Assembly (NCBI GenBank): GCA_902779125.1
Contig: CACZAC010000007.1
Span: forward strand, 1 to 64,000
Length of the DNA stretch: 64,000 bases
Direction: 5' to 3'
Source: an uncultured Bacteroidales bacterium
GTDB lineage: Bacteria; Bacteroidota; Bacteroidia; Bacteroidales; Muribaculaceae
Below, in pieces: positions 2,894 through 63,962 of this stretch. The translations under genes were made by a program, and so were the position numbers. The first letter of the stretch is position 1; each line of letters starts with the position of its first letter. The notes below the pieces were generated by a model. The model was given only the letters and a program-made list of their open reading frames with translations. It was not told the origin of the DNA and searched no databases.

Positions 2894-2967
2894 GGCGGGA
2901 TAGCTCAGTCGGTTAGAGCGTCGGATTCATAACCCGGAGGTCCTGAGTTCAATTCTCAGTCCCGCTA
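2894..2967 (+). tRNA. tRNA-Met (anticodon CAT)
   Basis: The cloverleaf can be drawn by hand. The acceptor stem pairs GGCGGGA with TCCCGCT (one G-T pair), with discriminator A at 2967. The D-arm is GCTCAGTCGGTTAGAGC. The anticodon loop is TTCATAA, giving CAT, and the T-arm is CTGAG/TTCAATT/CTCAG. CCA is not encoded. The anticodon stem lacks the run of three G-C pairs of initiator tRNA, favouring elongator Met. A lysidine-modified Ile2 tRNA also has CAT and is not excluded. The last anticodon-stem pair is an A-C mismatch. Confidence 0.9.
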
Positions 2968-2970
2968 CAT

Positions 2971-3004
2971 TCAAGGGGTCGCACCAAATGGTGCGGCCCC
3001 TTGA
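2971..3004 (+). terminator. Hairpin after tRNA-Met
   Basis: A 15-bp inverted repeat (arms starting TCAAGGGG and ending CCCCTTGA, one G-T pair, AAAT loop) starts 3 bases after the tRNA. There is no good T-run; instead a heptad array begins at the next base. Confidence 0.65.
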
Positions 3005-3034
3005 AGTTTAGAGTTTAGGGTTTAGAGTTTAGAG
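3005..3034 (+). repeat. Heptad array, AGTT orientation (left inverted arm)
   Basis: Four 7-nt units (AGTTTAG type) plus AG. It is a perfect inverted copy of 3550-3579 and begins immediately after the post-tRNA hairpin. Confidence 0.9.
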
Positions 3035-3088
3035 AGCCAGCGGTTTTCTTCTATCAGTCTCGTTATGTCTTTGCCTCTGGAGAAGTCC

Positions 3089-3469
3089 TCAGTCACTATC
3101 CTTTTGGGATTTAGAAGCGTAACTGTTGCGCAAACCGCTGATTAAACGAGATGTTTCAAAGAAAAGAGGCTTGATTGCTTCTAAATCATCGAGAGAAATG
3201 TAATTCAACTCTACAGCAATCTGCAATTGACAATAAGTTTCTAATAATGAGCCATAGGAAATCTCAAGAAAATGGATTTTCTCTTTCACTGATACCCGTC
3301 CTGTTCCTTCGGCAATATTCGATGGTACAGATATCGCAGCTCTCCTTATTTGGCTACTAAGGGCATATTGCTCATATTGAGGGAATTTGTTGACAATCTG
3401 ATAAACGGCTACAGCCAGTTCCTTGGCTTTTTGCCATGCTGTTAATTTTTCAAACTGATAAGAATCCAT
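3089..3469 (-). CDS. Four-helix-bundle protein (S23/IVP family)
   Basis: A 126-residue soluble all-helical protein with the family's N-terminal signature FEKLTAWQKAKELAVAVY (6-23) and the central RRAAISVPSNIAEG (about 42-55). Members were first described as proteins encoded in 23S rRNA intervening sequences. They are structurally related to the Avd accessory protein of diversity-generating retroelements, and stand-alone copies are common in Bacteroidetes. The biochemical role is unknown. Here the gene is isolated, lies inside a 30-bp inverted repeat, and has heptad-like sequence just before its ATG (about 3474-3487). A+T content looks higher than in neighbouring genes, consistent with acquisition. 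No reverse transcriptase or rRNA is nearby. Confidence 0.88.
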   Translation of the reverse strand: MDSYQFEKLTAWQKAKELAVAVYQIVNKFPQYEQYALSSQIRRAAISVPSNIAEGTGRVSVKEKIHFLEISYGSLLETYCQLQIAVELNYISLDDLEAIKPLFFETSRLISGLRNSYASKSQKDSD

Positions 3470-3498
3470 ATTCTCTAAACTCTAACAATAAAAATAAG

Positions 3499-3542
3499 CA
3501 GCAATTCTTTAGCTCTTTACCATGCTGCTGGCCTTTCAAACC
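3499..3542 (-). pseudogene. Decayed N-terminal copy of the four-helix-bundle gene
   Basis: Read on the minus strand, this segment gives F-E-R-P-A-A-W-stop-R-A-K-E-L-L. It aligns with F-E-K-L-T-A-W-Q-K-A-K-E-L-A of the intact gene downstream. Both copies are preceded by similar AATTCTCTAAACTC-like sequence. It appears to be a duplicated start region with an in-frame TAA. It is too short to say whether the rest was deleted or never copied. Confidence 0.55.
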
Positions 3543-3549
3543 ACTAATT

Positions 3550-3579
3550 CTCTAAACTCTAAACCCTAAACTCTAAACT
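3550..3579 (-). repeat. Heptad array, AACT orientation (right inverted arm)
   Basis: Exact reverse complement of 3005-3034. Its outer end meets the 37-base palindrome at 3579. Confidence 0.9.
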
Positions 3580-3615
3580 TGTACATGTAAAATGCGCCGC
3601 ATTTTACATGTACAA
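3579..3615 (-). terminator. 37-base near-perfect palindrome over the DUF4954 stop codon
   Basis: Arms of 18 bp (TTGTACATGTAAAATGCG and its reverse complement) around a single C. The DUF4954 stop codon (3604-3606) lies inside the right arm, so the last residues are encoded by the hairpin. It could end transcription, but no T-run follows on the minus strand. It may instead be part of the adjacent repeat element. Confidence 0.6.
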
Positions 3616-5460
3616 TTTCTGGTTTTCGAAGTCGACCTCGCGGTCGAGGAGGGTTACGAAGTCGTCGAGGACGTCGCGGTCGATATCGCCAAGGGTGTAC
3701 TCGTTCTCGGCATCCTCGCGGATGAGGGCAATCCATTCGCGACGGGCGGTGACGTAATCCTGATGGATGCGGGCCACAGCCTCGTCGGTCAATTCGGTGA
3801 TTCCGTAATAGTCTAGAATGACGCGATAGCTCCATGACCATCGCAACTCGTTGTAGTTGGCGTCAATCTCCTTGAAACGGGCATTAACGGCTTCGATGGT
3901 GTCGAGGCGTCCGTTGATGATATCGTCGATAATCTGTTCCTCAGCGCTTTGAGGCATGAGCAGACCCATTAGGTCAATCCAATTGCCTTCGCCGTCGCTG
4001 GAGACGGGAGGTATGGGTTTGTGGCGTTTGAGCACGGCGCCCATGTAGATACGCAATGCCATGTCGTAGTACTTGATGCCCTTGTGCAGCAACGGAGCCT
4101 TGATGACATACTCGTGGTAATTGTAGGTGCTCACATTGTCGCCACTTGCGGCACGCAGGTTCTCGAGAATCTTTTTGCCTCGCAGCACCTCGCTGATGGT
4201 GAACGGGCTTAGCCAGTCAAAGTTGACCACGCTGCGGTGCTCCCCACGATAGCGCTTGTCACGCTTGGGCCACTTGCGGATGTCGCGGTACAGGCCCACG
4301 GTGGCGAAGTTGCGACCCGGTTTCAGGTACATGGTGTCGCCATAAGCAATCAGGTAGGAGAAAGGCAGGTCGCGCGTGTCGGGGTGATACATCAGTTTGC
4401 CGAACAGGACGCTGAACGAGCCGATGTTGGCGGGCAGCAGCAGATAGGCGCCACTGGCGGTCTTGCAGCCGCGTTCCAGGGCTCCGTGGTGCATGGGTCC
4501 CATCTTGTAGGCATGGTTGCTGAAGTTGGTTGCCGAGCCCGCATTATAGAACGAGAACATGGCACCGATGAGCAGCGAACTCTTGTGGTGACTCACCGTG
4601 AACGGACCACAGAAGGCCGCACACGCCTCTCCGTTGGACATATAGCTGTTGGCGAAAAAGACACTGCTGGCAGCTGTGAAGCCGTTCTCCAGGTGGCAGG
4701 ATTCACCCACGAAGCAGTCGGTCAGCTTGACGCTGCCCGTGAGACGTGATCCGCCACTGATGATGGTGTTTTCACAGATGACGCCCGTGCGAATGATGAT
4801 AGGATTCTCCATTGTGCTTCTGATGGTGCAGTTGCTCAATCGAGACACGCCGCAAATCTGGCATCCGTCATCGACGATGGTGTTGATGATGACACCCGTG
4901 TTGATGATGCGCACATTGTCGCCGATGGTGCTGCACTCGGGACGCGATGCCGCTACCGATTGCTCTACCATCCGCTTGATGGCTTCCATCATGGGCTTGT
5001 TATCGCCGTGCTTGACCATGAGGGCGGCAAGTTGGCTGTTCAGTTCGTTGAGCAGCAACAGGTTGCCGTCCCCCACCTCGTTAAGCACTGCTATTGTGTG
5101 TCCTTGACCGTAATTGGGTTTGCGCACGGTGTCGATGGTGCTGACATTGGAAATGTAGCACCCGTCACCGATGTTGACTCTATTCAAGTAGTTGCCGATG
5201 TTCTCGATCAGGCATCCGTCACCGATGGTCACGTTGCGCAGCGTGGCATTATAGATGCCACAGTTCTTGACAAAGCCCTCAGTAATCTCGACAGTACCTT
5301 CGCTGCCGCCTAGACGTGCCCAACCATAGAATTGCACGCGATGGCAGCGCTTGGTGTCAAAGTCATCAGTTACTTGTATCTCGTTCCAATCTTGAGCCCA
5401 ACAGTCGTTTCTTTTCAAGGCATCGATTTGTTGGTCTGTAAGGTGTCTGTATTCTTTCAT
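3604..5460 (-). CDS. DUF4954 family protein with left-handed beta-helix
   Basis: A 618-residue cytoplasmic-looking protein with no signal peptide. Residues about 60-290 contain hexapeptide-like repeats (VTIGDGCLIENIG, VNIGDGCYISNVS, STIGDNVRIINTGVII) typical of left-handed parallel beta-helix proteins such as sugar-nucleotide acyltransferases. The full length and order match the Bacteroidales DUF4954 family, whose substrate is not established; nucleotidyl- or acyl-transferase-like activity is only an inference from the fold. The last codons overlap a long palindrome. A TACCTTTG -7 box lies at 5490-5497. Confidence 0.82.
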   Translation of the reverse strand: MKEYRHLTDQQIDALKRNDCWAQDWNEIQVTDDFDTKRCHRVQFYGWARLGGSEGTVEITEGFVKNCGIYNATLRNVTIGDGCLIENIGNYLNRVNIGDGCYISNVSTIDTVRKPNYGQGHTIAVLNEVGDGNLLLLNELNSQLAALMVKHGDNKPMMEAIKRMVEQSVAASRPECSTIGDNVRIINTGVIINTIVDDGCQICGVSRLSNCTIRSTMENPIIIRTGVICENTIISGGSRLTGSVKLTDCFVGESCHLENGFTAASSVFFANSYMSNGEACAAFCGPFTVSHHKSSLLIGAMFSFYNAGSATNFSNHAYKMGPMHHGALERGCKTASGAYLLLPANIGSFSVLFGKLMYHPDTRDLPFSYLIAYGDTMYLKPGRNFATVGLYRDIRKWPKRDKRYRGEHRSVVNFDWLSPFTISEVLRGKKILENLRAASGDNVSTYNYHEYVIKAPLLHKGIKYYDMALRIYMGAVLKRHKPIPPVSSDGEGNWIDLMGLLMPQSAEEQIIDDIINGRLDTIEAVNARFKEIDANYNELRWSWSYRVILDYYGITELTDEAVARIHQDYVTARREWIALIREDAENEYTLGDIDRDVLDDFVTLLDREVDFENQKLYM

Positions 5461-5489
5461 GAGTTAGACATTTTTTAATAAATGTGGCG

Positions 5490-5497
5490 CAAAGGTA
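5490..5497 (-). promoter_or_regulatory. -7 box for the DUF4954 gene
   Basis: TACCTTTG on the minus strand about 30 bases before the ATG. The best TTG-like -33 candidate (5522-5524) is a little too far away, at 24 nt. Confidence 0.45.
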
Positions 5498-5580
5498 GTA
5501 TGAATGTACAGTATAATAAGACAATCCCCATCATTTTAATATTTGATAGGGATTGTAAAAGTTTTTTTAGCATTTTCCGA

Positions 5581-5645
5581 TGCGAGCGTTGCTCGCAGTT
5601 TAGAGTTTAGAGGGTAACCGCCAATTCCTAACTCCTAAATCCTCA
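5581..5645 (+). repeat. Hairpin plus inverted heptad array
   Basis: GCGAGC-GTT-GCTCGC (5582-5596) runs straight into AGTTTAG units (5597-5612). A short centre and AACT-orientation units (AATTCCT, AACTCCT, AAATCCT) follow, up to the GH125 stop codon. Confidence 0.75.
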
Positions 5646-7106
5646 CTAGTCAAGGCAGTGGATGAGCAGGTCGGTCTTGCCGTTGTCGATGAGGTGGATG
5701 ACCAGTTCGCCGAAGAGGGTGTTCTGCCAGGCGAACCAGGCACGGGTGTATTTCTGGGGGTTGTCCTTGTGGAACGACTCGTGCATGAAGCCGGTGCCAG
5801 CATCGGTGGTGAGCAGTTGTCTCATGCACCATGCAATTTCGGCATCGTCTTGGGCGGTAAAGGCCTTCATCATGATGCTCATGGGCCAGATGAGGTTATA
5901 GGCCGTGTGAGCCCCGCCGATTCCCTCGCATGCCGTGCCCTTGAAGAAGCAAGGATTATCCTCGCTCCAGACAAAGCGGCGCGTGTTGAGGTAGATGGGG
6001 TCATCCATGGGCACATCGCCCAGATAGCCCATTGCCAACAGGCTGGGCACATTGGCGTCGTCGGCGAGGACTCGTCCGCCCCAGCCGTCCACCTCGTAGG
6101 CGTAGATTTTGCCGTATTTGGGATGGTCCACGATGGCATACTTGTGCAGGGCATCCTCCACCTCCTGGGCGAGGGTGCGGCACTGGTCGGCTAGCAGGTA
6201 GTCATGGTTCACTTTTTGAAGGATTTCACCCGCCTTGCGCAGCGAGTTGACAGCCATGAAGTTGCTGGGCACCAGGAAAGGCAGCACCGTGGCGTCGTCG
6301 CTGGGACGGAAACACGACACAATCAGTCCGACGGGGTTTACGGGAGGTCCCCAGCCATACCATGTGAGTGACGATTTGGCATCGATATCGCGGCGCATGA
6401 ACTTGTAGGGACCCTTGTCGCCGTTCTTGCGCTGTTGCTCCTTGAAGGTGCGCAACACCGCCTGCATTGCCTCGACCCAGAGGTCGCCGAAGATGCTGTC
6501 GTCGCCCGTTACCAACCAGTACTCATAGGCCAAGCGGATGGGGTAACACAGCGAGTCAATCTCGTACTTGCGCTCATGCAGTTCAGGCTTCATGTCGGTC
6601 AGGTCTTCCTGCCACTGGCTGCCTGTCGGGCCGTCGTTGAAGGCGTTGGCATAGGGGTCCAGAACGATGCACTTGAGTTGGCGCAGGATGACGCCGCGCA
6701 GCATGTGGCGCAGTTTCTCGTCCTTGTTGGCATACTTGACGTAGGGCCACACTTGGGCACCGCTGTCGCGCAACCACATCGCGTGGATGTCACCCGTATA
6801 TACAAATGTGTCGTCATCGCCGTCGTCAGTCAGGCGGTAATGCACCGTGCTGTCGAGCGTGTTGGGGAAGCAGTTTTCAAACATCCACGCCAACCGCGGA
6901 TTGCCCTTGATTTTCTTCAGCACTTCTTTGATGCGTTTCTCGATAATCACACTGGTGAACAGCCGTTCCTCGGCGGGCGGGCGTTTGGTGACATAGGTCG
7001 AGGTTGCGTCACTCACTACCGCGGTGTAGCGCGGATGCACATCGGCAGTAGCCGGTAATACGGCGGCCACCGCTACAATACTTAATATAAGGTGTCTCAG
7101 TTTCAT
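5646..7106 (-). CDS. GH125 exo-alpha-mannosidase, exported
   Basis: Predicted to hydrolyse alpha-1,6-linked mannose from glycans; GH125 enzymes are metal-independent and inverting. From the ATG at 7106 the protein is 486 residues with a signal peptide ([21 protein letters not shown]). A longer reading to 7133 starts upstream of the predicted transcription start, so 7106 is preferred. GH125 hallmarks include [37 protein letters not shown] (containing an expected catalytic Asp) and the C-terminal [10 protein letters not shown]-type segment. It forms a single-gene unit between repeats and probably belongs to periplasmic N-glycan or mannan breakdown. Confidence 0.9.
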
Positions 7107-7182: not shown

Positions 7183-7247
7183 CATCCGCACTCCTGAATA
7201 ATGGAATGCGGATGACCCTCTAAACTCTAAACACTAAACCCTAAACT
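7183..7247 (-). repeat. Hairpin and 30-base heptad array after the LRR gene
   Basis: Array 7218-7247 is, on the minus strand, AGTTTAG-GGTTTAG-TGTTTAG-AGTTTAG-AG: the same 30-base design as 3005-3034 with three changes. An 8-bp hairpin (CATCCGCA / TGCGGATG, 7183-7214) lies just downstream of it and may end transcription of the LRR gene. Confidence 0.7.
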
Positions 7248-17384: not shown

Positions 17385-17401
17385 GTTTTACCCTTTGGCT
17401 G

Positions 17402-17459
17402 AAAACTGAAAACTGAAAACTGACAACTAGAAACTAGGGACTAGAAACTGGAAACTAAG
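17402..17459 (+). repeat. Heptad array between batA and batB
   Basis: Eight AACT-orientation units in a row (AACTGAA, AACTGAA, AACTGAC, AACTAGA, AACTAGG, GACTAGA, AACTGGA, AACTAAG), ending two bases before the batB ATG. Confidence 0.85.
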
Positions 17460-21218: not shown

Positions 21219-21298
21219 AAGTGAGGAGTTAGAAGTTAGGAGTTAAAACTGACGACTGAAAACTGAAAACTGAAAACTGACGACTGACAACTGAAAAA
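21208..21298. repeat. Large inverted heptad array between batD and batE
   Basis: The left arm in AGTT orientation (GGAGTTA, AAAGTGA, GGAGTTA, GAAGTTA, GGAGTTA) overlaps the batD stop. The right arm in AACT orientation (AACTGAC, GACTGAA, AACTGAA, AACTGAA, AACTGAC, GACTGAC, AACTGAA) ends at the batE start. Confidence 0.85.
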
Positions 21299-29454: not shown

Positions 29455-29460
29455 CCTTTT

Positions 29461-29530
29461 TTAGCTTTCAGTTTTCAGTTGTCAGTTTTCAGTTGTCAGT
29501 TTAACTCCTAACTTCTAACTCCTAACCCAA
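29461..29530. repeat. Inverted heptad array between acyltransferase and metallophosphoesterase
   Basis: Five CAGTTNN units (CAGTTTT, CAGTTGT alternating) meet AACTCCT, AACTTCT, AACTCCT, AACCC. The switch point is CAGTTTAACTCC. Confidence 0.85.
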
Positions 29531-37162: not shown

Positions 37163-37205
37163 TCGCTGCGTTCGCAGTTTAGAGTTTAGTGGTTAGAGTT
37201 TAGAG
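37163..37205 (+). repeat. 30-base heptad array after the cation-efflux gene
   Basis: 37176-37205 reads AGTTTAG-AGTTTAG-TGGTTAG-AGTTTAG-AG, the same 30-base design as 3005-3034. It is preceded by CTGCG-TT-CGCAG (37167-37178), a small hairpin that meets the first unit. Confidence 0.8.
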
Positions 37206-62895: not shown

Positions 62896-62945
62896 TCAAA
62901 CTGAAAACTGACAACTGAAAACTGAGAACTGAGAACTGACAACTG
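62896..62945 (+). repeat. Heptad array forming the tsaD leader
   Basis: Seven AACT units (AACTGAA, AACTGAC, AACTGAA, AACTGAG, AACTGAG, AACTGAC, AACTG) run without interruption from near the predicted transcription start to the ATG. Confidence 0.85.
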
Positions 62946-63962
62946 ATGAGTGTAACGATATTAGGTATAGAATCGTCGTGCGACGACACGTCGGCAGCGG
63001 TATTGCGCGATACCGTGCTGTTGAGTAATGTCATTGCTAGCCAGCGGGTCCATGAGGCTTACGGTGGCGTGGTGCCCGAGTTGGCTTCGCGTGCCCACCA
63101 GCAGAACATCGTGCCCGTCGTGAGCGAGGCCATACGTCAGGCGGGCATCGACCGCAAGGATATCGATGCCATCGCATTCACACGCGGTCCCGGTCTGCCC
63201 GGATCGCTTCATGTGGGCACCTCTTTTGCCAAGGGCTTGGCACTGGCGCTCGACATTCCGCTGGTTGATGTGAACCACCTGCATGGTCATGTGCTTTCCC
63301 ACTTCGTCAAGGAGGACCCCGATGCCGAGGTGCCTGAATTCCCTTATCTGTGCCTGCTCATCAGCGGCGGTAATTCGCAGATTATCAAGGTTAATTCACC
63401 CCGTGATATGGAGGTGCTGGGACAGACCATCGACGATGCTGCTGGCGAGGCATTCGACAAGTGTGCCAAGGTCATGGGTCTGCCTTATCCTGGTGGCCCC
63501 GTCATCGACCGTCTGGCAGCCGAGGGCAACGCTAAAGCCTTTAAGTTTGCCAAACCTCATGTCGATGGCTATAACTACAGCTTCAGCGGTTTGAAGACCT
63601 CGTTCCTCTACACCCTGCGCGATGCCCTTAAGGAAAATCCCAATTTCATCGAGGAGAACAAGGCTGATTTGGCCGCTTCGCTGCAACGCACCATCATCGA
63701 GATTCTGATGGACAAGTTCGGCAAGGCAATCAAGGACACTGGCATACGGACCATCGCCATCGGCGGCGGTGTGTCGGCCAACAGTGGTATGCGTGCCGCA
63801 GTCGAGGATTACGCCCGCCGTCACCGTCTCAAGGCTTTCATCCCGAAACGTGTCTTCACGACCGACAATGCCGCCATGATAGCCATCGCCGGCCACTACA
63901 AATTCCTCGACAAAGACTTCTGCGACATCACCGCTCCCCCCTTCCAGCGAGTCATCATCTGA
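62946..63962 (+). CDS. tsaD: tRNA N6-adenosine threonylcarbamoyltransferase
   Basis: Transfers threonylcarbamoyl to A37 of tRNAs reading ANN codons (t6A), with TsaB/TsaE partners not in the window. The 338-residue protein has the family start ILGIESSCDDTSAAV, metal-binding His residues in HLHGH (111 and 115), and GGGVSANSGMR in the C-terminal half. Length is typical. A terminator follows the stop codon. Confidence 0.95.
   Translation: MSVTILGIESSCDDTSAAVLRDTVLLSNVIASQRVHEAYGGVVPELASRAHQQNIVPVVSEAIRQAGIDRKDIDAIAFTRGPGLPGSLHVGTSFAKGLALALDIPLVDVNHLHGHVLSHFVKEDPDAEVPEFPYLCLLISGGNSQIIKVNSPRDMEVLGQTIDDAAGEAFDKCAKVMGLPYPGGPVIDRLAAEGNAKAFKFAKPHVDGYNYSFSGLKTSFLYTLRDALKENPNFIEENKADLAASLQRTIIEILMDKFGKAIKDTGIRTIAIGGGVSANSGMRAAVEDYARRHRLKAFIPKRVFTTDNAAMIAIAGHYKFLDKDFCDITAPPFQRVII

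Follow-up and report, generated by a model that had tools for sequence, protein, structure and literature searches.

S23 genes enclosed by inverted heptad arrays in several phyla suggest an undescribed kind of mobile element

An S23 gene between inverted heptad arrays

The 64,000-nucleotide stretch of Muribaculaceae DNA analysed here, which we call the window, carries between a tRNA-Met gene and a DUF4954/DUF6819 gene a short unit in which a small gene is enclosed by two inverted arrays of a 7-nt repeat. The features of this site, and the solitary arrays with the same repeat elsewhere in the window, are as follows.

2894..2968, + strand: tRNA-Met (CAT), left neighbour of the site (ARAGORN)
2970..3005: left outer hairpin, terminator-like; the empty-site genome G002 has a similar stem
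3004..3034: left heptad array, AGTTTAG x4.3, reading inward on the + strand
3089..3469, - strand: S23/IVP four-helix-bundle gene, 126 aa (PF05635, TIGR02436)
3470..3485: inner partial array ATTCTCTAAACTCTAA, a direct repeat directly upstream of the S23 start
3496..3540, - strand: about 15 codons left of a second S23 N-terminus (BLOSUM comparison)
3550..3579: right heptad array, exact reverse complement of the left one
3576..3618: right outer hairpin, overlapping the DUF4954 gene at its 3' end
3604..5460, - strand: DUF4954/DUF6819 gene, right neighbour of the site (profile match)
5597..5647: solitary inverted array pair with AGTTTAG and GTTAGGA units, missing there in several congeners
7218..7247: solitary AGTTTAG array
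37176..37205: solitary AGTTTAG array

The initial annotation of this DNA had described a small element shaped by perfect inverted repeats, and its account of the architecture largely holds. The two 30-bp stretches 3005-3034 and 3550-3579 are reverse complements without a mismatch, with 4.3 heptads each, and the arms can be extended to 3004-3046 and 3538-3580 with a 91% match. The S23 gene is the longer of two listed ORFs of at least 40 aa between the arrays, and in profile searches its product matched PF05635 at 1e-35 (above the cut-off) and TIGR02436 at 5e-35 and matched no transposase. Hairpins are present at both outer edges, and no target-site duplication could be recognised at the site, both as previously described. 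The decayed second S23 copy of the annotation has been reduced to a fragment: the reading at 3496-3540 scores 49 against the N-terminal residues of S23, where the best of 100 shuffles scores 35, whereas on the left side of the element the similarity is at shuffle level (34 vs 35), and a full second copy is not supported. The right hairpin is a composite. The DUF4954 gene provides the outer arm with its native end, and the inner arm is an inverted copy of that end; the four genomes in which the site is empty (see below) have the same gene end without this inner arm. When the element is folded as RNA together with its outer hairpins, the arrays are predicted to pair in one long stem enclosing the gene (z -13.5 vs 20 shuffles).

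Two further observations concern arrays in the window. A GCATCCGC motif considered as a mark of inner array edges found no support in the window, with five sites there and one of them no more than 30 nt from an array. A fourth unit, AACTGAA/AACTGAC, forms arrays at 17399-17457, 21245-21297, 29458-29502 and 62898-62946; S23 elements with a similar unit were found at loci L011 and L013, the latter identical with L083, and none was found in the window's genome.

Inverted arrays at S23 genes in several phyla

Each gene was scored by comparing 250 bases on its upstream side with 250 bases on its downstream side for the best inverted match, with a threshold of 30. In the window, 4 of 47 ORFs have an upstream/downstream inverted match of at least 30, with the S23 gene at the top (66) and two of the other three (3604-5460 and 5646-7106) adjoining AGTTTAG arrays. 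We sampled 80 S23 loci from several phyla and 92 from the window's genome and its relatives; 2 of these 172 had short flanks, leaving 170. The threshold was reached by 115 of 170 (47/80 from several phyla; 68/90 from the window's genome and relatives), a count that still holds some or all of the duplicated loci (L013/L083, L028/L090, L036/L156, L169/L170), as do the site tree and the shuffled-flank, hairpin-edge and residue-conservation data. With the four duplicates removed, 112 of 166 distinct loci are at threshold (46/78; 66/88), and the 54 without strong inverted flanks at this cut-off count against reading the S23 genes as parts of a mobile element.

The same score is seldom reached by controls. 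When arms were swapped between elements, so that an upstream arm met a downstream arm from elsewhere, 35 of 1660 combinations were at threshold, and of 170 shuffled flanks none was. For the 73 of the 80 loci that had a usable ATG ORF and 200-nt flanks, 43 of 73 S23 genes were at threshold with 200-base flanks, compared with 12 of the 377 remaining ORFs at these loci (Fisher p 2e-29); this is the enrichment of inverted heptad arrays at S23 genes elsewhere that the initial annotation had put forward as a test. The 12 high-scoring control ORFs themselves include three S23 genes, one GxxExxY gene and one REP-Tyr-transposase match below cut-off. Plain chance is rejected by the ORF controls, the swapped arms and the shuffles.

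The pattern is a general one. Five family matches were found in the window's genome, and all three full-length S23 genes among them lie between inverted 7-nt arrays whose units differ. The class of L089, a locus from a Hydrogenophilales genome (Gammaproteobacteria in GTDB), has the family in 77 of 369 genomes; 19 of 29 loci read were at threshold, or 23 of 34 with five more, one of which is L089 again (L263 is the same locus as L089, because its genome has one match). In the class of G065, loci L268 and L292 have arms of GGGAATA/GGGAGTA, and on cyanobacterial plasmids 6 of 10 S23 loci are at threshold.

Some observations stand beside this survey. The window's genome has, at L004 and L005, longer divergent S23-like proteins with no heptad arms close by, which we excluded from the S23 set. 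In Desulfobulbaceae, locus L111 has heptad-like inverted arms also around two non-S23 ORFs. G393:C1, from a 1.5-Mb genome in the class of G065, holds 11 weak family matches, several with identical scores. A search of phages with one cyanobacterial S23 query gave no match.

Repeat units and the S23 protein

The arms are arrays of one period and very many sequences. Within the range 5-12, the best period is 7 in 195 of 224 S23 arms, and the 112 elements with period-7 arms carry 78 different units; in these 112 elements the strand that reads inward is poor in C (8.5% C vs 32% G). The unit is related to the protein it encloses. In a comparison that included all 10 cyanobacterial loci and excluded elements without period-7 arms, the mean distance between units was 3.2 for proteins less than 45% identical, 2.0 at 55-65%, 1.5 at 65-80% and 0.33 above 80% (Mantel p 0.001). 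Only a weak correlation is left among protein pairs below 60% identity (r -0.07, p 0.018), and therefore much of the signal comes from close relatives. Unit and S23 protein diverge together, mainly among relatives.

The protein itself is strongly constrained at six positions, Q40, R43, S47, N51, E54 and E77, which are 98-100% conserved in 177 S23 rows; the two acidic residues among them would fit an active site. S23 has a sequence homologue with a solved structure. Lin et al. 2006, cited in a passage of PMC4990558, describe a homologue as a homopentameric ring. The passages of the literature that were retrieved report no enzyme activity for S23.

The window's site in related genomes

The end of the DUF4954 protein served as query against the genus (41 genomes), of which 34 gave a match, and 30 loci were read; in 17 genomes the tRNA-Met lies beside the DUF4954 gene as it does in the window, and only these sites were taken as comparable. 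Twelve of the 17, including the window's genome G000, have S23 there, G002, G019, G026 and G064 are empty, and G006 retains just a piece of array. The empty sites proposed as a check on the initial annotation thus exist. In the next intergenic gap (5461-5645 in the window), some congeners have solitary inverted pairs and others have none. As a separate observation, REP-like palindromes flank a protein at L082:9536-10072 that scores 53.5 bits against the REP-associated tyrosine transposase model, below the cut-off of 80, and the gap beside DUF4954 in G006 contains a palindrome like them.

In the tree, the site's S23 proteins group as a single clade (support 88/86), with a single origin in 87% of bootstrap trees, and the most likely history is therefore one old arrival. 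Recent movement at the window's own site is rejected by the same single clade, and the window's copy is most likely an old, vertically kept resident. The copy in G021 has been inverted in place, and those of G020, G021 and G032 have a different unit, with the two arms of each alike. For 10 of the 12 site genes (45 pairs, 18 of them without finite dS), the median dN/dS over the 27 finite pairs is 0.082, with dS often >1, which points to strong purifying selection on the S23 protein at this site.

If the stem-closed S23 message were simply an RNA device that controls its own processing or expression, the unit would be a domesticated, non-mobile cassette, and the strength of the predicted stem, the vertical inheritance and the low dN/dS (0.08) at the window's site would all be accounted for. 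The Coxiella 23S rRNA element, which also combines S23 with terminal repeats, is cut by RNase III according to a passage of PMC4990558. Two sets of observations oppose this explanation, namely the presence and absence of elements at seven plasmid sites, one of them with an exact duplication, and the solitary arrays of the same unit across genomes, which control of a single message leaves unexplained. We regard a purely regulatory role as decidedly unlikely.

Filled and empty sites on cyanobacterial plasmids

At seven sites, plasmids with an S23 element were compared to plasmids without one. Site 1 is filled in Trichormus variabilis and Scytonema and empty in Tolypothrix PCC 7601 and Nostoc carneum. 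Five bases, GTAAT, are exactly doubled around the element; a strict rule recognises this duplication in 2 of 4 pairings, with a one-base difference in the right flank blocking the other two. The arrays are missing in the empty state, and both arms and the gene arrive together. At site 4, in Nostoc, TTCTA lies on both sides with an adjacent one-base difference, a duplication that is near-exact by eye and uncounted by the strict rule. None of the other five sites has a clean duplication, and the resulting tally of an exact duplication by rule at one of seven sites is counted against mobility. The elements occupy gaps within gene clusters, and at site 7 the insertion seems to have truncated the upstream gene at its end. 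No single element was seen in a fresh burst of many copies.

Three S23 elements (L235, L239, L242) lie in CRISPR clusters: in Picosynechococcus PCC 7003 an S23 element stands between cas10 and cmr3, with none in PCC 7002, and in Anabaena sp. 90 and Pseudanabaena galeata one stands between cas6 and cas4.

Mobility, which the initial annotation had proposed for the unit in the window, therefore has a mixed outcome: presence and absence with a 5-bp duplication is seen at one plasmid site, but the window's own copy is old and mostly vertically inherited. Inverted ends and a duplication of about 5 bp are also what a classical transposon would leave, and the elements could be ordinary MITEs or IS remnants that a known, unlinked transposase mobilises, S23 being a passenger. 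Known transposases recognise fixed ends, and on this explanation one would have to account for a single gene family in several phyla associated with 78 units in 112 elements, while control genes rarely lie between such arms. We consider such a passenger role for S23 highly improbable.

Solitary arrays and the resident S23

The window's genome contains many arrays without a gene. The pattern GTTTAGNGTTTAGNGTTTAG, which represents the GTTTAG unit, has 85 matches in G000 and up to 105 in its relatives, and the reversed pattern has 0 in all 41 genomes; overlapping matches were counted separately, and the counts are therefore of pattern matches and not of separate arrays. The 12 genomes with the site's S23 have 3-105 matches, compared with 41, 0, 0, 0, 0, 2 and 0 in seven close genomes without it (Mann-Whitney p 0.002), a comparison of per-genome counts that is confounded by relatedness and in which the seven include G009 and G035, where the tRNA was not seen beside the gene. 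The four empty-site genomes have 0, 0, 0 and 2 matches. Against the association stand G006, which has the array remnant and 41 matches, and G022, outside the close group, with 22; no S23 of the GTTTAG unit was found in either.

Two other units were counted in the same way, and these counts too are confounded by relatedness. The three highest counts of AATGCAC belong to G008 and G028, whose S23 arms have this unit, and to G010, in which the pattern lies 82 nt from an S23; 11 matches in G034, where no AATGCAC S23 was found, count against. For AGTCCC, three carriers are high, yet seven genomes without a known AGTCCC S23 have at least 10 matches, which is therefore evidence against a strict rule that ties arrays to S23. 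The REP-like relation suggested by the initial annotation, with arrays in genomes that hold the matching S23, is thus supported by pattern counts for two units and is weaker for the third.

The exceptions bear on an explanation in which a host process independent of S23, such as slippage, end repair or another enzyme, makes the arrays, and S23 genes merely settle there. Arrays without S23 are common in the window, and some genomes have many arrays and no known S23 of that unit. Hairpins of at least 8 bp are present at 14 of 140 array edges vs 1 of 258 control positions further out, which resembles end processing; seven of the 14 edges belong to the window's site and two to a single locus that appears twice in the set, and the hairpins therefore represent only seven separate loci (the window and six others). 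However, arms match within an element and seldom between elements, the unit tracks the S23 protein among relatives, and close relatives without the site's S23 are mostly without its arrays. At plasmid site 1, moreover, the empty state has no arrays for a gene to settle into, and arms and gene arrive as one. On balance we find a host origin of the arrays rather unlikely.

A parallel arrangement around GxxExxY genes

S23 may not be alone in this arrangement. Genes of the GxxExxY family (TIGR04256; loci L205-L234) have inverted flanks of at least 30 in 22 of 30 loci, compared with 65 of 870 swapped arms and 0 of 150 shuffles, and the best period of their arms is 9 in 30 of 44. One such gene that was checked matches the PDDEXK_3 profile. 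GxxExxY nuclease-family genes between arrays of units of about 9 nt appear, by these scores, to be a system parallel to that of S23. In 61 genomes, both families occur in 42, S23 alone in 8, GxxExxY alone in 2 and neither in 9. Since 8 genomes have S23 alone, S23 seems not to need the GxxExxY nuclease, and a dependence on that nuclease in trans is rejected.

How the elements may move

The association of S23 genes with inverted heptad arrays of differing units in several phyla suggests an undescribed kind of mobile element. We think it reasonably probable that the unit in the window belongs to it, as a REP/RAYT-like mobile element with heptad-array ends in which S23 is the only protein. We infer that S23 recognises the heptads. 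As a homologue of a homopentameric ring, it would recognise its own heptads at both ends of the element and draw these ends together, and insertion would occur mostly in intergenic gaps via a staggered cut that can leave a duplication of about 5 bp. Arrays of the same unit without a gene would then spread as non-autonomous copies. At the RNA stage, the two arrays would form a long stem enclosing the gene, as in 23S rRNA intervening sequences, and cutting of this stem by RNase III, which outside rRNA is our extrapolation, would let operons tolerate the insert. Given the array stem, movement by an RNA route is also possible.

A more far-reaching version holds that S23 is itself an enzyme of a new class, one for end-joining or transposition of DNA or RNA. 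In that version a pentameric four-helix bundle, with the invariant polar residues Q40, R43, S47, N51, E54 and E77, would read its own 7-nt unit, and both the rRNA intervening sequences and the heptad arrays found in Bacteroidota, cyanobacteria and Gammaproteobacteria would originate from it, with the GxxExxY genes as a parallel. We offer this as a speculation that is unlikely to be right. If the S23 elements are mobile, they would provide a concrete role for a large S23/IVP family of unassigned function, which includes the solved structure 2GSC, the product of XCC0516.

Comparison with known systems

RAYT/REP systems combine a small gene in inverted terminal repeats with many short cognate repeats elsewhere in the genome, and RAYTs are Y1 transposases with palindromic REPs. 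The unit in the window resembles them in its small gene, its inverted ends and the cognate repeats dispersed through its genome (85 matches), but it differs in its protein, a four-helix bundle, and in its ends, which consist of tandem heptads. Profile searches with the S23 protein returned S23/IVP-type matches and weak Avd matches, and none to a Y1 tyrosine transposase. With IS elements and MITEs the unit shares terminal inverted repeats, here exact over 30 bp, whereas unlike an IS it contains no recognisable transposase. The likeness to the Avd protein of DGRs is that of a related four-helix-bundle family, and the S23 protein falls below the profile cut-offs (Avd 27.3 vs 80 bits; bAvd 20.9 vs 40).

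Cyanobacterial STRRs are another kind of heptameric repeat array. Heptad arrays have been described in Xanthomonas (GGGAATC), Nostoc (GGGGATT) and Beggiatoaceae (TAACTGA), often in convergent pairs in Xanthomonas, in passages of PMC4692102 and PMC4679880. These are intergenic 7-nt tandem arrays like those of the window, but the passages tie them to no gene family or mobile element and name no source for them. A family of mobile elements built on S23 may explain such scattered 7-base arrays in bacterial genomes, and would offer a possible origin where these passages give none.

The nearest known kind of element is the rRNA intervening sequence, whose own mechanism is unproven. In Coxiella, as described in passages of PMC4990558, the 23S rRNA intervening sequence has an S23 ORF, 28-bp terminal inverted repeats that form a stem, and heptameric direct repeats, GACAGAT, upstream of the ORF; its mobility was proposed by earlier authors quoted there. 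Beyond Coxiella, the passages retrieved from open-licence articles in PubMed Central, including PMC8934634 and PMC4853749, draw no link between S23 and heptad arrays. The window's unit shares with the intervening sequences of Coxiella and Leptospira an S23 ORF in terminal inverted repeats that close a predicted stem, as well as heptads. It differs in its location, since intervening sequences sit in 23S rRNA helices and this unit is intergenic, between tRNA-Met and the DUF4954 gene, with a heptad of its own, and in the many more arrays of the same AGTTTAG unit that its genome holds. If the mobile-element reading is true, the 23S rRNA intervening sequences would belong to a general mobile-element family that is bounded by tandem repeats, not by fixed sequences.
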